From Nitrosomonas sp. Nm166 (GTDB lineage: Bacteria; Pseudomonadota; Gammaproteobacteria; Burkholderiales; Nitrosomonadaceae): a stretch of 64,000 bases of DNA. The notes beneath the pieces are model-generated. The model searched no databases, had not been told where the DNA came from, and was given only the letters and a program-made list of their open reading frames with translations. The stretch spans positions 1-64,000 of the forward strand of contig NZ_FONE01000006.1 in NCBI RefSeq assembly GCF_900112825.1. The letters are read 5' to 3'. Positions 36,876-46,108 of this stretch are shown here, piece by piece (the first letter of the stretch is position 1; the number at the start of each line of letters is the position of its first letter). A program made the position numbers and the translations under genes.

Positions 36876-37601
36876 ATGGCTGAGCAATCTCACGCAAACA
36901 TACGCATATTGGTGGCGGAGAGCTTTGAGCTTGTGCGCATGGGGTTACGTGTATTATTCGAGAATCATCCGGTTATATGCTTGGTAGCCGAAACCCGCTG
37001 TGTAGAAGATTTGGTCGATTTGGCGATGCAGCATAAGCCGGATGTGGTTCTGGTTGATTTGCAGTTAAATAATGGCAATTGTATTGAGCATATTTCCAAA
37101 TTATTAAATGCTTGTCCCCAAATAAAGGTGCTGGCCTTTTCTCACAGCTATAATGAGCAAACTTGCCTAGAAATATTTCGTTCAGGGGTGGTAGGCATTA
37201 TTAGCAAACAGCATTCTTCTGAATTATTGCTGAAAGCCATCCACGCAATTTATGCAGGTCAAATCTGGTTTGACCGCCATATTACCAAGCTGCTATGGCA
37301 AGCGCAGTTTAATGCCAATCTGTCACCCGAAATTCTAACCGATGTTAAGGCGTTGCCATTTCCAAAATTGAGTGAGAGTGAGCGTCAAGTCGCTTATCTC
37401 GCTTGCAAGGGTTTATCTGCTAAGGAAATAAGTTTGCAACTGTGCATTGCAGAAAAAACCGTACGTAATCAATTATCAATAATTTATAAAAAAATCGGTG
37501 TTAAAAAGCAAATTGAATTGTGTCTAAAAGCGCCGCTGTTTAATCACTTCAAAGATTCTCATACATGCGGGATATCTTTCCCTGAAGATCAAGAAAAATA
37601 G
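36876..37601 (+). CDS. LuxR-type regulator with an atypical receiver domain
   Basis: 241 residues. The receiver fold is clear (phospho-acceptor-like D61 in VVLVDLQL, Lys in GIISKQHSSE), but the paired acidic residues that bind Mg2+ are changed: AESFE occupies the place of the usual DDH (residues 14-16, A-E-S). Phosphorylation may therefore be weakened or lost. The C-terminal helix-turn-helix is intact (LSESERQVAYLACKGLSAKE, ISLQLCIAEKTVRNQLS). No kinase gene is adjacent. It is flanked by two copies of one promoter-like element, one before it and one before the oxidase genes, suggesting autoregulation and control of the oxidases. The tail is about 20 residues longer than usual. Confidence 0.93.
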   Translation: MAEQSHANIRILVAESFELVRMGLRVLFENHPVICLVAETRCVEDLVDLAMQHKPDVVLVDLQLNNGNCIEHISKLLNACPQIKVLAFSHSYNEQTCLEIFRSGVVGIISKQHSSELLLKAIHAIYAGQIWFDRHITKLLWQAQFNANLSPEILTDVKALPFPKLSESERQVAYLACKGLSAKEISLQLCIAEKTVRNQLSIIYKKIGVKKQIELCLKAPLFNHFKDSHTCGISFPEDQEK

Positions 37602-37680: not shown

Positions 37681-37827
37681 GGCAGGCTGTAAAACTATTC
37701 CTCAGAGCTCGATGTGAGCTTTTTAAGAAAATCGCCAGCCTCAAAGATATCTATTGATTTGTCGCGGATATTTCTACGCAAGCTTTAACTTGATAGGTAG
37801 TTTTACATTTAAGGAGGAATATTAAAA

Positions 37828-38826
37828 ATGCTGTTTCAGCTCAATCAACTTTGCTGTGCCACAGAATTCTCTGAGAATTCTGATGCCACGCAATACACGC
37901 CGCATCACACCTGGTTAAGAAAGTTGCCTATGGTGTGGCTTGTTCTGGCATTGTCTTTCGTGCTCATTGCAAAGAGTTATGCAGGGGAGCATATTATTCG
38001 ATTGACAGCAGAAGAAACTCAGGATGATGGATTTGGCAATAAGCTACTGGCTTACAAAATGCTAAATCATACGATTGATGGCGTAGATATCACGAGTCGC
38101 TATAGTCCTGCAGCTACAATTCCTGGTCCTACAATTGTATTAACCGAAGGTGATACAGTTTATTTGACAATTGAAAATGCAATTTCAGGCGCTTTTACGC
38201 ATACACCTGGTATCAGTAAGCAAGTCAGCATACATGTACATGGCGTTCATTACGACATACTCAGCGACGGCACCCTTAAAGTGATTAATAAACACGATGA
38301 CGAGGGAGCCGGTAATGGACCGGAAGCAACACATACAAGCTATGAATACAAATGGAATGTTGCTCACGGAACCGCGGGTACCTGGCCCTACCATGATCAT
38401 AATTTCGAGAGCCATAACGGCTCAGAAAATAAGGGACTTTTTGGCGCCATCATTGTGAAGCCGATTGGTGCTCCCCATTATGCTAAAGAGTATGTGCTCT
38501 ATTTGGGAGATGATGCTTTCTGGGGAATGGAAATTGATGGGGTTACTCAGAAACAATCAAAACATGGCGTCAATCCATCCTTGGGTGCTGTTAAAAATAG
38601 CGATGTCAGGTTTCATTTGATTGCTATGGGCACAGATATCCACAAATTTGTTCTGGATGGTTATCAATGGCTCGATCCGGGAACACATAACCTTATCCAT
38701 CAAGTTTTAATCGGTCCGCTGGAGAAGCATGTATTTACTGTTAAGGCGAAGAATAGTGCACGGTATATGGATAACAACTTTTCTAATAGACTAATGGGCA
38801 TGGTAGGTAAGTTTAAGGTTCAATAA
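37828..38826 (+). CDS. Multicopper-oxidase-like protein A, domain-1 copper ligands only
   Basis: 332 residues, exported: a long N-region (about 34 residues with CC at 9-10), a hydrophobic core at about 35-49 and a probable cut after SYA. Two cupredoxin domains follow. Domain 1 has the trinuclear-site motifs: HVHG (H136, H138) and GTWPYHDH (H189, H191). In domain 2 the expected HTFHLHG is IHKFVLDG (only H272 kept), and the expected HCH-x3-H is replaced by MDNNFSNR near 314-321, so type-1 and second-domain trinuclear ligands are missing. AAGGAGG at 37811-37817 precedes the ATG by 10 nt. Followed after 37 nt by protein B, which shows the opposite pattern of losses. Confidence 0.92.
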   Translation: MLFQLNQLCCATEFSENSDATQYTPHHTWLRKLPMVWLVLALSFVLIAKSYAGEHIIRLTAEETQDDGFGNKLLAYKMLNHTIDGVDITSRYSPAATIPGPTIVLTEGDTVYLTIENAISGAFTHTPGISKQVSIHVHGVHYDILSDGTLKVINKHDDEGAGNGPEATHTSYEYKWNVAHGTAGTWPYHDHNFESHNGSENKGLFGAIIVKPIGAPHYAKEYVLYLGDDAFWGMEIDGVTQKQSKHGVNPSLGAVKNSDVRFHLIAMGTDIHKFVLDGYQWLDPGTHNLIHQVLIGPLEKHVFTVKAKNSARYMDNNFSNRLMGMVGKFKVQ

Positions 38827-38863
38827 ACCTGAAAAACATACCTTACAAAAACAGGATAACACC

Positions 38864-41638
38864 ATGAATAACAATATTTTTAAATTAAGAAATTCGGTCT
38901 CGATGCTGACGGTTTTCATACTGTTTGCTGTGATATTTCTGATATCACCCATGGCATTGGCAGCAACACATTACTTTACGATTACCGCCAAAACCTTACC
39001 TAATGGTCAATTGGGCTATGCTTTGGGTGGGACTGAAGGCGGCAGCAATGCAGAAGCTGTCATTCCTGGCCCGGCTTTATTTGTAAAACAGGGTGATGTG
39101 GTAAATGTAACGCTCTTCAACGAAACCGCATCTGAAGTGGGGTTTAAGGTGCCGGGTCTGAAAAACAAAAATACTACCAGAACACGCCCGGGACAGGTCC
39201 AGAAATATACTGTTTTGGCTAACAAAGCAGGGACCTATGCCTATCACGGTGATGGAAGAGAATTGCTGGGTTTGTTTGGCGCATTTATTGTTGATAAACC
39301 TAATGGTCCGGTAGATAGCTATATTAATGCGGATGGCAGCGTTGTTCCCGTTACTCAAGCCGACGTGGATAAACAATTTGTTTTATTTATGGTCGGTTCT
39401 ACTTTCTGGGGCACCGAAATAGCTAAAGATGGCACGCAAAAACCGTTGTGGGCCAATCCCAATCCGGCAGCGGTCGAAAACGATATTGTCCGTTTTCATG
39501 TCTTATCAGTAGGGCCAGGGCATACCTTTCATTTACACGCGCATCGCTGGCTGAAGACAGGAACAAATGAAATTATTGATACTAAATTGCTGAAAGAAGG
39601 TGCAGATAGTCATGCATTCACTATCAAAGCAGGAACGGGTGTCGGCGTTGGGGATTGGCAATATCATTGTCACTTGTTTGCGCATATGGAGGCAGGCATG
39701 CACGGCAGCTTCCGGGTTGATCCTGCTGGTGGGAATGGTGCCAGTGTTGTAGGTGCGTCACCCTACGGCAGAATTTTACTGGGTCCAAAGGACGAGCCAG
39801 GCTTGGTAACTTTTGAAGTTACCGATGAACCTGCCAGCTGGTTTAGAAGCGCGCGTGGTGATGCTATTGCCGCCCTTACTGATGCGAATGGAATTAGCTT
39901 AGACATTAAAACCAAATCCCTGGAAGTAATCTCTCCGGGCAGTAGTGTTAACTTTGTCATGTCAGATACCAATGCCGTGCATACCATCAGTTCCTTGTTA
40001 TGGCCTACGGGCGCGCATCATATGCCTTTTGGCCAAACCGATGCCTACCGTGGTGGGGCAATTGTCAAATTGGATACACCTGGGCTTTATGTATTTACTT
40101 GCAAAGTCCATCCTTATATGTTCGGTGCAGTTATTGTCGACGATCCTGCCACGGAGGGGCTTGATTTAGGGAATCCGGAAACTAACTATACCGTTGATCT
40201 GGTTGCAGGTATTAAAGAGTTGCCAACGAGCAGTGATCTTGCTGTTCGTTTATTGAATACGTTTTTTATCACCACTTCGCCAGATAATTGGCAGGATTAT
40301 TCTTCCGGTATTTGGAACGTAAGATTTCCCACGTTGCCAGTGAGGATTTCTGGAGCGCCATTTGGCAATGTTGCGGATGACGGAAATGGATACAAATTAT
40401 CCTTATCTGCTCTTAATGTCATCAATGCAGCACTTCCTGCAGGTAAGGTTCCATTAACACCAGGCGTGGGAGAAGTGTGGGTTAACACTCAGTTCGAGAA
40501 AACCGCTGGCAAGTACAAACCGGGCACTACTACCGTGGTTGATGCGAGCAATTGGACAGTTAAACGTAAAGTCGCACTACCACAGATCAACAACAATAAT
40601 CCACATAACATGTGGGTCAACAGAGATCAATCCGTCATTTATCAAACACAGTGGTTTGATAATAAGATTACGATGATTAATCGTGAAAATGGTAAATTAA
40701 TCAAGAACATTCGAGTAGGATATGCACCCTCTCATGTAATGACATTGCCATCAACGGATGATTTGACCATCGTTATCAATGGTGAAAATGGCATTTCGAT
40801 GATGCCAGCTGGAACAACAAGTGTTACTAAAATGCTGCCAACTCAGGCGCATGGACATATTTCTGCTCATCCACATGGTCACTGGGTAAGTGCAGATGGC
40901 TCCAGGATCGTTACGCCTAATATTAATACTGATGATGTTGGTATTTATGGAGCTACTGGTGGCATACAAGCCAGAACAGCAACAGGGCAAAACATCCCGG
41001 GTGCGCATCCGGTTGCCATTGGCATGATGCCGGATTCCAGCAAAATTTACGCCACTAACCTGTTGCATCATTCTTTAAGTGTGCTTGACGGTAATACAGG
41101 TGCGTTAACAAAAACCATTAATCTCATTGCTGACTATGATCCTATTAATGGAGCTTTTTCAGACAAGGACGGAAATGGAGAAATTGCAGTTGGTGTGCTT
41201 CCCATTCAAGTACCCGTTTCACCGGATGGGAAAGCAGTCGTCATTGCTGCGATGGGTGGGCAGATTGTTATTGTTGATACAGCTACAGATAGTATCGTCA
41301 AGATGCTGCCTTGTGACCCAGGTTGTCACGGCGCAAATTTCGGCGCAAAACAAGGCGGAGGGTATTATGCCTATGTCACAAACAAATTCTCTAACCGGCT
41401 GATTGTAGTAGACCCAGATCCAAATGGTGATGGCAACTTAAATGATGCAAAGATCGCTGGTTATGTTTCTCTGGTTGAGAGTGCGGAGAGCGCCAAAGAT
41501 GATACTGTCAGTGGCTTACCGGGATTTGGTGGGCAAGGGGTTCTGGCCGTTCCGAATGTTTATAATGGCTGGGTGCAGAATCTCCCTGCCCATTGGAAGG
41601 AAGGTTTGACGACTGCACAGCAGAATCCAATTGATTAA
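38864..41638 (+). CDS. Multicopper-oxidase-like protein B with extra cupredoxin and propeller
   Basis: 924 residues with a Sec signal peptide (cut after ALA, about residue 33). Domain 1 (34-145) has lost most copper ligands: FKVPG replaces HxHG and YHGD replaces YHSH. Domain 2 (about 165-288) is complete: HTFHLH (H220, H223, H225), and HCH at 268-270 with H274 and M279. A third cupredoxin (about 310-428) has a type-1 site: H373, C413, H416, M419. Residues about 535-905 form repeats with YVTN-like propeller blades (IYATNLLHHSLSVLDGNTGA). AGGATAACACC precedes the ATG. Likely periplasmic; partner of protein A upstream. Substrate unknown. Confidence 0.93.
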   Translation: MNNNIFKLRNSVSMLTVFILFAVIFLISPMALAATHYFTITAKTLPNGQLGYALGGTEGGSNAEAVIPGPALFVKQGDVVNVTLFNETASEVGFKVPGLKNKNTTRTRPGQVQKYTVLANKAGTYAYHGDGRELLGLFGAFIVDKPNGPVDSYINADGSVVPVTQADVDKQFVLFMVGSTFWGTEIAKDGTQKPLWANPNPAAVENDIVRFHVLSVGPGHTFHLHAHRWLKTGTNEIIDTKLLKEGADSHAFTIKAGTGVGVGDWQYHCHLFAHMEAGMHGSFRVDPAGGNGASVVGASPYGRILLGPKDEPGLVTFEVTDEPASWFRSARGDAIAALTDANGISLDIKTKSLEVISPGSSVNFVMSDTNAVHTISSLLWPTGAHHMPFGQTDAYRGGAIVKLDTPGLYVFTCKVHPYMFGAVIVDDPATEGLDLGNPETNYTVDLVAGIKELPTSSDLAVRLLNTFFITTSPDNWQDYSSGIWNVRFPTLPVRISGAPFGNVADDGNGYKLSLSALNVINAALPAGKVPLTPGVGEVWVNTQFEKTAGKYKPGTTTVVDASNWTVKRKVALPQINNNNPHNMWVNRDQSVIYQTQWFDNKITMINRENGKLIKNIRVGYAPSHVMTLPSTDDLTIVINGENGISMMPAGTTSVTKMLPTQAHGHISAHPHGHWVSADGSRIVTPNINTDDVGIYGATGGIQARTATGQNIPGAHPVAIGMMPDSSKIYATNLLHHSLSVLDGNTGALTKTINLIADYDPINGAFSDKDGNGEIAVGVLPIQVPVSPDGKAVVIAAMGGQIVIVDTATDSIVKMLPCDPGCHGANFGAKQGGGYYAYVTNKFSNRLIVVDPDPNGDGNLNDAKIAGYVSLVESAESAKDDTVSGLPGFGGQGVLAVPNVYNGWVQNLPAHWKEGLTTAQQNPID

Positions 41639-41676
41639 TAATTAATTTGATAGAATAGAAAGGCTATTTTCTTGAG

Positions 41677-41708
41677 ACGGCTACTCGCTAAGGCGAGTAG
41701 CCGTTTTC
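41677..41708 (+). terminator. Intrinsic terminator of the copper cassette
   Basis: ACGGCTACTCGC at 41677-41688 pairs perfectly over 12 bp with GCGAGTAGCCGT at 41693-41704 around TAAG, followed by TTTCATTTT. Strong stem, moderate T-tail. It closes the regulator/oxidase cassette about 40 nt after protein B. Confidence 0.9.
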
Positions 41709-43714: not shown

Positions 43715-46108
43715 TTAATGATTGGCTTGCCAGCGCTTCAATAGTAATGAATTGCTGACGACTGATACGGAACTCATGGCCATGGCGGCTCCGGCAATCA
43801 CCGGATTGAGCATGCCGATGGCAGCTAATGGAATACCTAGCGCATTATAAATAAAAGCAAAGAACAGGTTTTGGCGGATTTTCTTGAGTGTAGTACGCGA
43901 CAGAGAGATCGCGTCAGCGACGCTCATCAAGTCGTTGCGTATCAAGGTGATATCGGCCGCTTCAATCGCGACATCCGAACCGGCACCAATGGCGAAACTC
44001 ACATCCGCAGCTGCCAGAGCCGGCGCGTCGTTGATACCATCGCCGACCATGGCGGTAAATTTACCGCTTGCTTTCAGCTTCATCACTTCAGCGGCTTTAT
44101 CTTGCGGTAAGACTTCAGCGCGATATTGCGTAATGCCTGTGTGTTTGGCGACGGCAGAGGCTGTTACGGCATTGTCACCGGTCAGCATAACTACTTCGAT
44201 GCCCATCGCTTGTAAACGTTCAACGGCTTTGAAGGAGGTATCACGCACGCGGTCTGCGATGCCCAGATAACCGAGCACTTTGGGAGTATTATCTGAAGTA
44301 GATGCAATCCCGATGACGGTTTTGCCTTCTGCCTGTAAGGCGGTGATCTGTTTTTCATCAATCATGGTGCCTTGCTCGGCTAGAAATTTGGGTGAACCCA
44401 GCAGGTATTGTGTGTCATCCATGCGAGCTGTAACGCCACTACCGGTGACGGCAGAGAAACCCTGAATGGATTGGAGGGGCAGTTGCATTTTCTGCGCACT
44501 GCCCAGAATTGCTCGGGCTAGCGGATGTTCGGATCCTTGTTCCAGCGAAGCCGCCACTTGCAGTAACTCCTGCGTACTGATGGATGCAATGGGAACAATG
44601 TCGGTAACTTCCGGTTTACCCTCAGTCAGTGTGCCAGTTTTATCGACAATGATGGTTTGAATTTTCTCGGCATGTTCCAGCGCGGCTGCATTTTTGACCA
44701 GCACGCCAGCCTGCGCGCCGCGTCCGGTGCCAACCATGATCGCGGTAGGTGTTGCCAGTCCCAAGGCGCACGGGCAGGCAATGACTAAAACGGCGACGGC
44801 ATTGATGAGCGCAGCAACAAAGTCATCTGTAAGCCACCAGCTAATTCCCAGGGTCAGAATGCTGATCACCACGACAACCGGGACAAATATCCCTGATATC
44901 GTATCTGCCATGCGTTGAATGGGTGCCTTGGAGCCTTGCGCTTCTTCGACCAGACGAATAATGGCAGCCAGTTGGGTATGTTCGCCGACACTGGTTGCGC
45001 GACACTTGAGCAGGCCTTGCTGATTCTGGGTGGCAGCGAAGACTTTTGATTCCACCTGTTTAGTAACAGGTAAGCTTTCGCCAGTCAGCATGGATTCATT
45101 AACGCTGGAGATTCCTTCAATGACGATGCCATCGACCGGCAGATTTTCACCCGACCGGACAATAAAAATATCATTGACTTGCAGACTGCTGACCGGTACT
45201 TCGAGGATTTCTCCGTTGCGCTCAATACGGGCCGTTTTAGGCTGTAATCTGATCAGGGCTTCGATAGCTTCAGAAGTTTTTCCTTTGGCGCGGGCTTCCA
45301 TCAATTTACCCAGCAGAACCAGCGTAATGATAGCTGCACTGGCCTCAAAATAGACATGCTGATCCAGCCTGAATGCTGTGACCACGGCACTGAAAAAATA
45401 AGCCATGCTGGTGCCTAACGCGATGAGGACATCCATATTGGCACCACCGCCACGCAGAGAATGCCAAGCTCCAATATAGAAGCGCTGCCCTATCCAGAAT
45501 TGCACGGGAGTTGCCAGTAGCCATTGCAGCCACCGGGGCAACATGTCCGCATGATCGCCGGAAAACATGGCGCCCATCTGCAACACCAACGGTAGAGTGA
45601 GAATTGCTGAAATCCAGAATAAACGTAATTCTGCTTGATATGCTGCCATCCGGCGTGCTTTTTCTTCAGCATGGCTAAATTCGCTGATTTCGTTCGCGCC
45701 ATAACCCGCATTGATCACAGCATTAATTAAGTCATCCACCGTCACGAGACCCGGCATGAAACTAACTTTGGCTGTTTCGGTTGCGACATTCACAGTGGCT
45801 GAGACACCGGGCAATTTATTCAGCGCTTTTTCGATATGCCCAGCACAGGCTGTGCAGGTCATTTTGTGCAATTGCAATTGCACAGACCGTGGTGCAATAT
45901 GAAAACCGGCTTTTTTTATAACACCGATCAGCATGTCAGTTTTGACTTGGCTTTCGTCATAATTTACATGGGCTTTCTCATTAGCGAAATTGACGGCCGC
46001 CTGAACACCGGGAAGCTTGTTCAGATTCTTTTCGATACGCGCCGCGCAGGCAGCGCAAGTCATACCTTCAATGGGTAATTCGATTTGTTTGAGGGCTGGA
46101 GCGTTCAA
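43715..46108 (-). CDS. copA: Cu(I)-exporting P1B-type ATPase
   Basis: 797 residues. Two N-terminal HMA domains carry CxxC: C18/C21 ([13 protein letters not shown]) and C85/C88 ([13 protein letters not shown]). The transmembrane metal site is CPC in VIACPCALG, phosphorylation at [13 protein letters not shown], the phosphatase TGES (MLTGES), the HP motif SEHPLA and the hinge [16 protein letters not shown]. The pattern is Cu(I) rather than Zn/Cd. Exports copper from the cytoplasm. First gene with copZ behind it; no CueR- or CopY-type operator was identified upstream. Confidence 0.97.

Follow-up and report, generated by a model that had tools for sequence, protein, structure and literature searches.

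Two adjacent genes of Nitrosomonas sp. Nm166 encode proteins, here called A and B, that likely make up a single exported multicopper oxidase as its two obligate subunits. Their sequences suggest that its trinuclear copper center forms only where domain 1 of A meets domain 2 of B. The genes lie in the window, a stretch of 64,000 nucleotides at positions 1 to 64,000 of contig NZ_FONE01000006.1 (RefSeq assembly GCF_900112825.1). Gene A (37828..38826, + strand) encodes a two-domain cupredoxin protein of 332 amino acids with half of a trinuclear site, in domain 1. Gene B (38864..41638, + strand) follows on the same strand after a gap of 37 bases. It encodes 924 amino acids, with a two-domain multicopper oxidase part (residues ~30–300) fused to a cupredoxin and a 7-bladed propeller. 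A first-pass annotation of the window had proposed a split heteromeric oxidase at this locus, and both open reading frames have the coordinates, lengths, and strand that it gave. The N terminus of each protein reads, by eye, as a predicted Sec-type signal peptide, and both chains would be exported.

By Pfam profile, both proteins have Cu-oxidase_3, and B additionally has Cu-oxidase_2 and a propeller of the lactonase type. The best phmmer matches in the PDB are two-domain (type-B) laccases both for A (E 4.5e-16) and for the first 290 residues of B (E 3.4e-18), and the alignments register the domain 1 motifs of A and the domain 2 motifs of B on these enzymes. Domain 1 of A contains HVHG (H136 and H138; 38233..38244, +) and YHDH (H189 and H191; 38389..38400, +). 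Its domain 2 is degenerate: GTDIHKFVLD (38629..38658, +), where the sequence reads H272-KFVLDG, occupies the place of HTFHLH, and YMDNNFSNRLMGM (38764..38802, +) occupies the place of HCHxxxHxxxxM. B has the opposite arrangement. FKVPG (residues 94–98; 39143..39157, +) stands where HxHG is expected, and YHGD (residues 127–130; 39242..39253, +) stands where YHDH is expected. Domain 2 of B contains HTFHLH (39521..39538, +), which supplies the type 1 (T1) ligand H220 and the type 2/type 3 (T2/T3) ligands H223 and H225, followed by HCHLFAHMEAGM (39665..39700, +), which supplies T3 ligands H268 and H270 and T1 ligands C269, H274, and M279. One aligned domain 1 histidine is left in B of the window, H128 in YHGD, and this residue is not conserved in the family. 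The eight trinuclear histidines are not found in one chain; A has the four of domain 1, and B has the four of domain 2.

Ligand positions were counted in all loci collected, which hold 77 distinct A proteins, 74 B proteins, and 16 proteins of a complete one-chain form (C). The four domain 1 trinuclear histidines, both in HVHG and both in YHDH, are kept in 77/77 A proteins, and a single A protein (L017) has a histidine, one only, at any domain 2 trinuclear position. The T1 cysteine of A is replaced throughout, by aspartate in 68/77. Conversely, 72/74 B proteins keep the four domain 2 trinuclear histidines, and the two exceptions are broken genes, one split between frames (L010) and one a fragment near a contig end (L157). 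All three histidines of HTFHLH, including the T1 ligand H220, are present in 73/74 B proteins, and the second domain 2 motif with its T1 ligands C269, H274, and M279 is present in 72/74. A histidine at either position of the domain 1 HxHG motif occurs in 0/74 B proteins; the first histidine of YHDH persists in 45/74 and the second in 0/74. Domain 1 of B accordingly has one histidine out of four in 45 proteins and none in 29. No A or B protein examined has a full ligand set, as the first-pass annotation had it for the two chains of the window, and its residue numbers agree with ours. Its description of B stands for the intact domain 2 and needs one refinement in domain 1, where H128 of YHGD aligns with a ligand histidine.

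The same reciprocal pattern was recovered in two sets of relatives. HVHG and YHDH occur in 44/44 A frames of the first set, HTFHLH and HCHxxxHxxxxM occur in all 40 B frames spanning the oxidase part, and the opposite motifs are gone. The second set (L114–L198, mostly named records) has the same pattern in 70 A, 65 B, and 15 C proteins, with HTWHLH in 6/65 and HTFHIH in 1/65 of the B proteins. The second residue of HVHG differs in two Nitrosospira rows of A, and in three B rows where HCH had seemed absent, it lies past an insert or in another reading frame. Mean pairwise identities of domain 1 and domain 2 are 0.627 and 0.606 in A, 0.566 and 0.703 in B, and 0.723 and 0.788 in C. Domain conservation shifts in the expected direction, clearly in B but slightly in A. 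Some B genes depart from the usual form. Two Nitrosospira-type B proteins (L150 and L153) have a charged insert of ~50 residues between the two domain 2 copper motifs, and the B frames of G128, G129, and G135 are 981–983 amino acids long and appear from a split match to have the same insert. Two Nitrosomonas metagenome-assembled genomes (MAGs; L167 and L172) have two tandem A-B pairs, with HTWHLH in one B of each tandem.

Co-occurrence was scored in 125 genomes of the family using E <= 1e-60 to define a strong match. Strong A matches were found in 72 genomes and strong B matches in 71, and all 71 B genomes also carry A. B lies on the same contig within 346 bp of A for 77/80 A copies. Of the three unlinked A copies, one belongs to a pair spread over two contigs (G003), one is partial and the second copy of its genome (G028), and one comes from a MAG (G011). 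The first-pass annotation had held that A occurring widely without B would speak against the pairing; A does not occur in this way, and the side-by-side pairs that it had suggested looking for are conserved with the same reciprocal losses. Seven genomes have more than one A copy. Same-genome comparisons (five separate pairs and two tandem pairs) give A and B distances that are alike, for example 0.49 and 0.44. The median ratio of nonsynonymous to synonymous substitution rates (dN/dS) is 0.084 over 48 non-independent comparisons of A and 0.063 over 60 comparisons of B. These low ratios show that both genes are kept by purifying selection.

The C proteins contain all eight trinuclear histidines in one chain (16/16). 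Their sources are mostly methanotrophs (Methylocaldum, Methylomicrobium, Methyloglobulus, Methylohalobius, Methylocystis, and others), and C is also found in MAGs labelled Methyloversatilis and Nitrosopumilus and on one Methylocystis rosea plasmid. A cupredoxin-propeller gene is directly downstream of the C oxidase in 13/15 loci, and the plasmid has the same arrangement. Eight methanotroph partner genes are 46–48% identical to residues 315–924 of B. The partner gene was not found in the examined flanks of loci L197 and L198; the first of these is the MAG labelled Nitrosopumilus, which encodes a complete two-domain oxidase. The M. rosea genes are annotated as 'multicopper oxidase domain-containing protein' (C) and 'hypothetical protein' (its neighbor), and an NnrS-family gene is found a few genes away from the plasmid copy of C. 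The first-pass annotation had counted homologues with complete ligand sets as evidence against a split site. The 16 C proteins are literally such homologues, but none falls inside the A or B clade. Because they lie outside both clades and most precede a cupredoxin-propeller gene, the C proteins look ancestral and not like a counter-example.

The oxidase tree was thinned to 38 A, 30 B, and 12 C rows with one outgroup. A is monophyletic (100/100), B is monophyletic (100/100), and the C rows lie outside both in a poorly resolved order. The branches leading to A (0.73) and B (1.21) are long, so the finer branching order is untrustworthy. A tree constrained to unite A and B in one clade is 2.9 log units better and is not rejected (approximately unbiased test, p-AU 0.57). 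A single A+B clade fits one duplication, as expected, and is not proof of it. The tree of the C-terminal part has three separate groups: fused B (93/93), methanotroph partners (100/100), and stand-alone paralogues of ammonia-oxidizing bacteria (100/100). As a family assignment, both A and B derive from a type-B two-domain multicopper oxidase and would be expected to function as one when combined, but neither chain has the ligand set that defines the family in a single chain. The simplest history begins with a complete oxidase encoded beside a cupredoxin-propeller gene, after which the oxidase duplicated, its second copy fused to the neighboring gene, and half-sites were lost reciprocally.

These data suggest a mechanism for the origin and operation of the pair. 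The ancestor would have been a homotrimeric type-B two-domain oxidase whose gene lay next to that of a separate cupredoxin-propeller protein, and methanotrophs would have retained it as one complete chain. In the ammonia-oxidizer lineage the oxidase gene would have duplicated, one copy would have fused to the cupredoxin-propeller gene to give B, and the two oxidase copies would have lost opposite halves of the trinuclear site. A would contribute H136, H138, H189, and H191, and B would contribute H223, H225, H268, and H270 together with a T1 copper held by H220, C269, H274, and M279. Since the ligand sets are reciprocal, the trinuclear center would be located only at a contact of A domain 1 with B domain 2. 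Domain 1 of A and domain 2 of a neighboring B would together supply all eight ligands, and the junction of B domain 1 with A domain 2 would supply none. A three-subunit ring of either composition, A2B or AB2, would have one correctly directed contact between A domain 1 and B domain 2, and would thus hold one trinuclear site if loaded with copper. Comparative evidence supports the first-pass proposal of an obligate heteromer derived from a duplicated two-domain enzyme, but the 2:2 or 3:3 assembly considered there need not be the unit, since a three-subunit ring would already hold one site. Electrons probably enter by the amicyanin-like copper domain of B, its propeller, or both. The domain 2 T1 copper, linked via HCH, would pass them to the trinuclear center, where O2 would be reduced to water.

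Type-B two-domain oxidases are described in PMC13151041 as homotrimers with interfacial trinuclear sites. These enzymes, or small laccases (SLAC, Ssl1, CjMCO), resemble A and B in having two cupredoxin domains, with the T1 site in domain 2 as in B, and their trinuclear site is shared by domain 1 of one subunit and domain 2 of its neighbor. They are also the best PDB matches to both proteins. They differ in that each chain has the full ligand set, whereas the set is split over A and B, and B has two extra modules. The methanotroph C loci are homologous to both A and B, and their downstream neighbor is homologous to the B C terminus; they encode one complete, unfused chain in place of a split pair with a fused B. 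Ceruloplasmin, like other six-domain multicopper oxidases, is a ring of six cupredoxin domains, and its only trinuclear site lies between domains 1 and 6. This one-site ring is the geometry expected of A2B or AB2, but ceruloplasmin is one polypeptide, whereas the asymmetry of the A-B ring would come from two genes. The manganese oxidase complex MnxEFG combines a multicopper oxidase with additional subunits that bind copper. B matches MnxG weakly in sequence (E 0.009), and the complex differs in that its trinuclear ligands are known from MnxG alone.

Several observations weigh against an obligate A-B enzyme. Physical association of the two chains is proposed from comparative evidence. The branching order of A, B, and C is weakly supported. 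One MAG (G011) has a strong A and a B match that begins only at residue 258, and another genome (G107) lacks A and has a weak fragment resembling B that is interrupted by two in-frame stops. The pairwise distances of A and B correlate with r = 0.923 over 64 pairs, a value that is supportive only, because relatives co-diverge through shared descent anyway, and the nearest neighbor is identical for A and B in only 44/64 pairs. Domain 2 of A still has the old first T1 histidine in 69/77 proteins and the methionine in 73/77, and it is almost as conserved as domain 1. From these retained residues and this identity, A domain 2 is not in free decay.

Structure prediction of the interface belongs with these points. 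A linked A-B chain was modelled with AlphaFold2 by reading the intergenic stop as a residue, using 18 paired loci that share a frame (alignment A4). An earlier alignment (A3, 59 rows with unpaired A and B added) had A rows misaligned over both halves and was replaced by A4. The linked model has a mean predicted local distance difference test score (pLDDT) of 74.2 and a predicted template modelling score (pTM) of 0.68, which hints at a defined packing and is not counted as evidence. A-B contacts, by which the first-pass annotation would have judged whether the two ligand sets meet, were not readable from the output of the linked model. In the VIA-align comparison, the 50 rows listed all fall on the B half (residues 332–593 of the linked chain), with small laccases at Z 24. 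Foldseek returned ceruloplasmin-like proteins in loose whole-length matches at 17–19 Å root mean square deviation (rmsd) and fungal laccases at 13–15 Å. The linked model does not establish a laccase-like arrangement of A and B.

The C-terminal part of B was analyzed in an alignment of 31 sequences from three groups: fused B, the methanotroph partner, and the stand-alone paralogue. The third cupredoxin of B (39806..40153, +) has an amicyanin-type T1 site consisting of H373 and C413-x2-H416-x2-M419. These ligands, which the first-pass annotation had recognized, are invariant in 31/31 sequences. The T1 loop of amicyanin and pseudoazurin has the pattern His ... Cys-x2-His-x2-Met, and the third domain of B fits it; NCBIfam matches of this domain to amicyanin and pseudoazurin are weak and far below their cut-offs. 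The YVTN-type beta-propeller of B (40448..41602, +), likewise recognized there, has seven blades. YVTN repeats (TIGR02276) score above cut-off, and 1l0q is a profile match (E 4.1e-22). The model of the C-terminal 610 residues of B has a mean pLDDT of 89.8 and a pTM of 0.91, and the best fold match of its propeller is again 1l0q (Z 38.4, rmsd 1.9 over 294 residues); 6nau matches with Z 34.9. Four propeller histidines (H624, H671, H673, and H822) are invariant in the 31 sequences, and H581 is conserved in at least 90%. By our own reading of the repeat pattern they lie at similar places, the blade starts. Judged by this conservation, the histidines are possibly a metal or cofactor site. A haem site at CxxxCH (817–822) was considered and dropped; the motif is absent in L191 and L194.

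The cupredoxin-propeller module also exists as a separate protein. A stand-alone paralogue of ~615 amino acids without oxidase domains is present in at least 24 of the 37 searched genomes of the genus, including Nm166 itself (G000:C67:12704-14431). Three copies (L066, L067, and L068) are 52–55% identical to residues 315–924 of B and have the same T1 ligands and propeller histidines. By resemblance, this paralogue is an unstudied copper protein in its own right.

The conserved histidines raise the possibility that the shared trinuclear center is real but that the main chemistry takes place in the propeller. The five histidines would bind a metal or cofactor that oxidizes the substrate, and the A-B oxidase would serve as the electron sink. 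This explanation adds to an A-B oxidase and does not exclude it, and we regard it as possible though doubtful. Nitrous oxide reductase has a 7-bladed propeller with a His-ligated copper cluster, and nitrous oxide reductases align to the confident propeller model with Z 30–31.5 over ~305 residues. However, other 7-bladed propellers, 1l0q and 6nau among them, equal or exceed these scores, and the conserved histidines may be structural. The likeness to nitrous oxide reductase is one of fold, and homology of the propeller to it is not claimed. A more elaborate form of the A-B oxidase is put forward tentatively. The His-rich propeller may bind metal and pass electrons along a built-in wire through the amicyanin-type copper and the domain 2 T1 copper to the A-B trinuclear center. 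The enzyme might then give ammonia oxidizers a dedicated oxidase for a nitrogen or copper intermediate, and it might be the first natural multicopper oxidase with an O2-reducing trinuclear site present only in a heteromer of reciprocally degenerated paralogues.

Alternatively, B could be an electron-transfer protein with two type 1 coppers and a propeller, and A a separate copper-binding or assembly protein, with neither reducing O2. It is true that each chain alone is without a complete trinuclear site, and the stand-alone paralogues indicate that the C-terminal module can act alone. We nevertheless consider this explanation improbable: without a trinuclear center, nothing obvious keeps the complementary histidines in 77 A and 72 B proteins, strong B matches are never found without A, and both genes are under purifying selection. 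It is much less probable still that the degenerate halves are relics and that A and B each complete a site with a third multicopper oxidase of the cell. The Nm166 genome does encode further multicopper oxidases, one of them a complete two-domain protein of 329 amino acids, but the latter has a complete site of its own and branches as a very distant outgroup (end branch 4.8), and a third partner is unnecessary for two proteins that are adjacent, co-inherited, and complementary. An artefact of wrong frames, misassembly, or chance motifs, conceivable at first sight when a single genome window was in view, is already refuted, because the pattern recurs in Nitrosomonas, Nitrosospira, and Nitrosovibrio, in isolates as well as in MAGs.

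Homologues of A were found in records of Nitrosomonas oligotropha, N. ureae, N. halophila, N. nitrosa, N. communis, N. marina, N. europaea ATCC 25978, Nitrosospira, and Nitrosovibrio, among others. Two wider samples were also searched. An A-profile match (E <= 1e-15) was found in 4/369 genomes of a class sample, two from the genus and two with the complete form, and a C-profile match (E <= 1e-20) was found in 3/398 genomes of a phylum sample, two from the genus and a third in which the match is weak and the oxidase looks unrelated (L201). In phage records, the oxidase part of B has no match at E <= 1e-5. The copper monooxygenase family PF02461, which stands for particulate methane/ammonia monooxygenase, is present in 11 of the 18 genomes tested, namely 10/14 with the complete form and Nm166. 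Three A-B MAGs labelled Nitrospirae, Chromatiales, and Pseudomonadales (L162, L166, and L171) have no PF02461 and fall inside a marine Nitrosomonas clade in the A tree. They likely reflect misbinning or transfer and are not used as evidence of wide distribution. A is present in 72/125 family genomes, slightly more than half, so the pair is not the missing step shared by all ammonia oxidizers.

The substrate may be reduced copper, a nitrogen oxide, or a quinol or cytochrome donor, and none of these candidates is favored. According to PMC13356812, two multicopper oxidase genes of N. europaea Nm50 rise almost equally late in phage infection (log fold changes of 6.16 and 6.14). These two genes are possibly an A-B pair. 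A comparative proteomic study of ammonia oxidizers (PMC5960693) discusses nitrosocyanin as a candidate nitric oxide (NO) oxidase, and its text does not contain the terms multi-copper, YVTN, or propeller. No description of the A-B pair or of a heteromeric trinuclear site was found in searches of open-access literature, as judged by titles and abstract openings. Within that literature, the A-B pair would, if the assignment is true, be the first multicopper oxidase to need two genes for its O2-reducing center, reaching with two genes the one-site ring that ceruloplasmin has in a single chain. It would be a natural case of a homo-oligomeric enzyme turned into an obligate hetero-oligomer by reciprocal half-site loss. 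The complete outgroup, the fusion, and the split form all exist in present-day genomes, so the transition can be rebuilt stepwise. The family also points to an unstudied copper oxidase common to methane and ammonia oxidizers, organisms in which the chemistry of copper and of nitrogen oxides is still being worked out, for example how NO becomes nitrite.

The surrounding sequence was read for signals and neighboring genes. A Shine-Dalgarno-like AAGGAGGAA precedes A (37811..37819, +) by direct sequence reading, and an intrinsic-terminator-like hairpin of 15 pairs with a T-rich tail follows B (41674..41707, +). The region has 7 terminator-like sites compared to 3.9 expected in shuffles, and the hairpin after B has the longest stem. 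Because the ribosome-binding-like sequence precedes A and the long hairpin follows B, A and B look like one two-gene unit. Gene neighborhoods were compared over flanks that reach ~3.2 kb (median) past B and only partly cover distant neighbors such as an ATPase gene at 43715-46108. No substrate enzyme is among the 25 neighbor families listed around A-B loci within these flanks. The only widely recurring neighbor family besides A and B, across 79 named loci, is a NarL-type regulator. It is near 33 of these loci, and in 32 it directly precedes A, at several of them as a tandem of two copies. In the window, a NarL/LuxR-type response regulator (36876..37601, +; Pfam match) lies just upstream of A and is possibly a regulator of the pair. 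The second gene downstream of B, on the − strand, is the ATPase gene, which encodes a heavy-metal P-type ATPase with HMA domains that is copper-type by resemblance.

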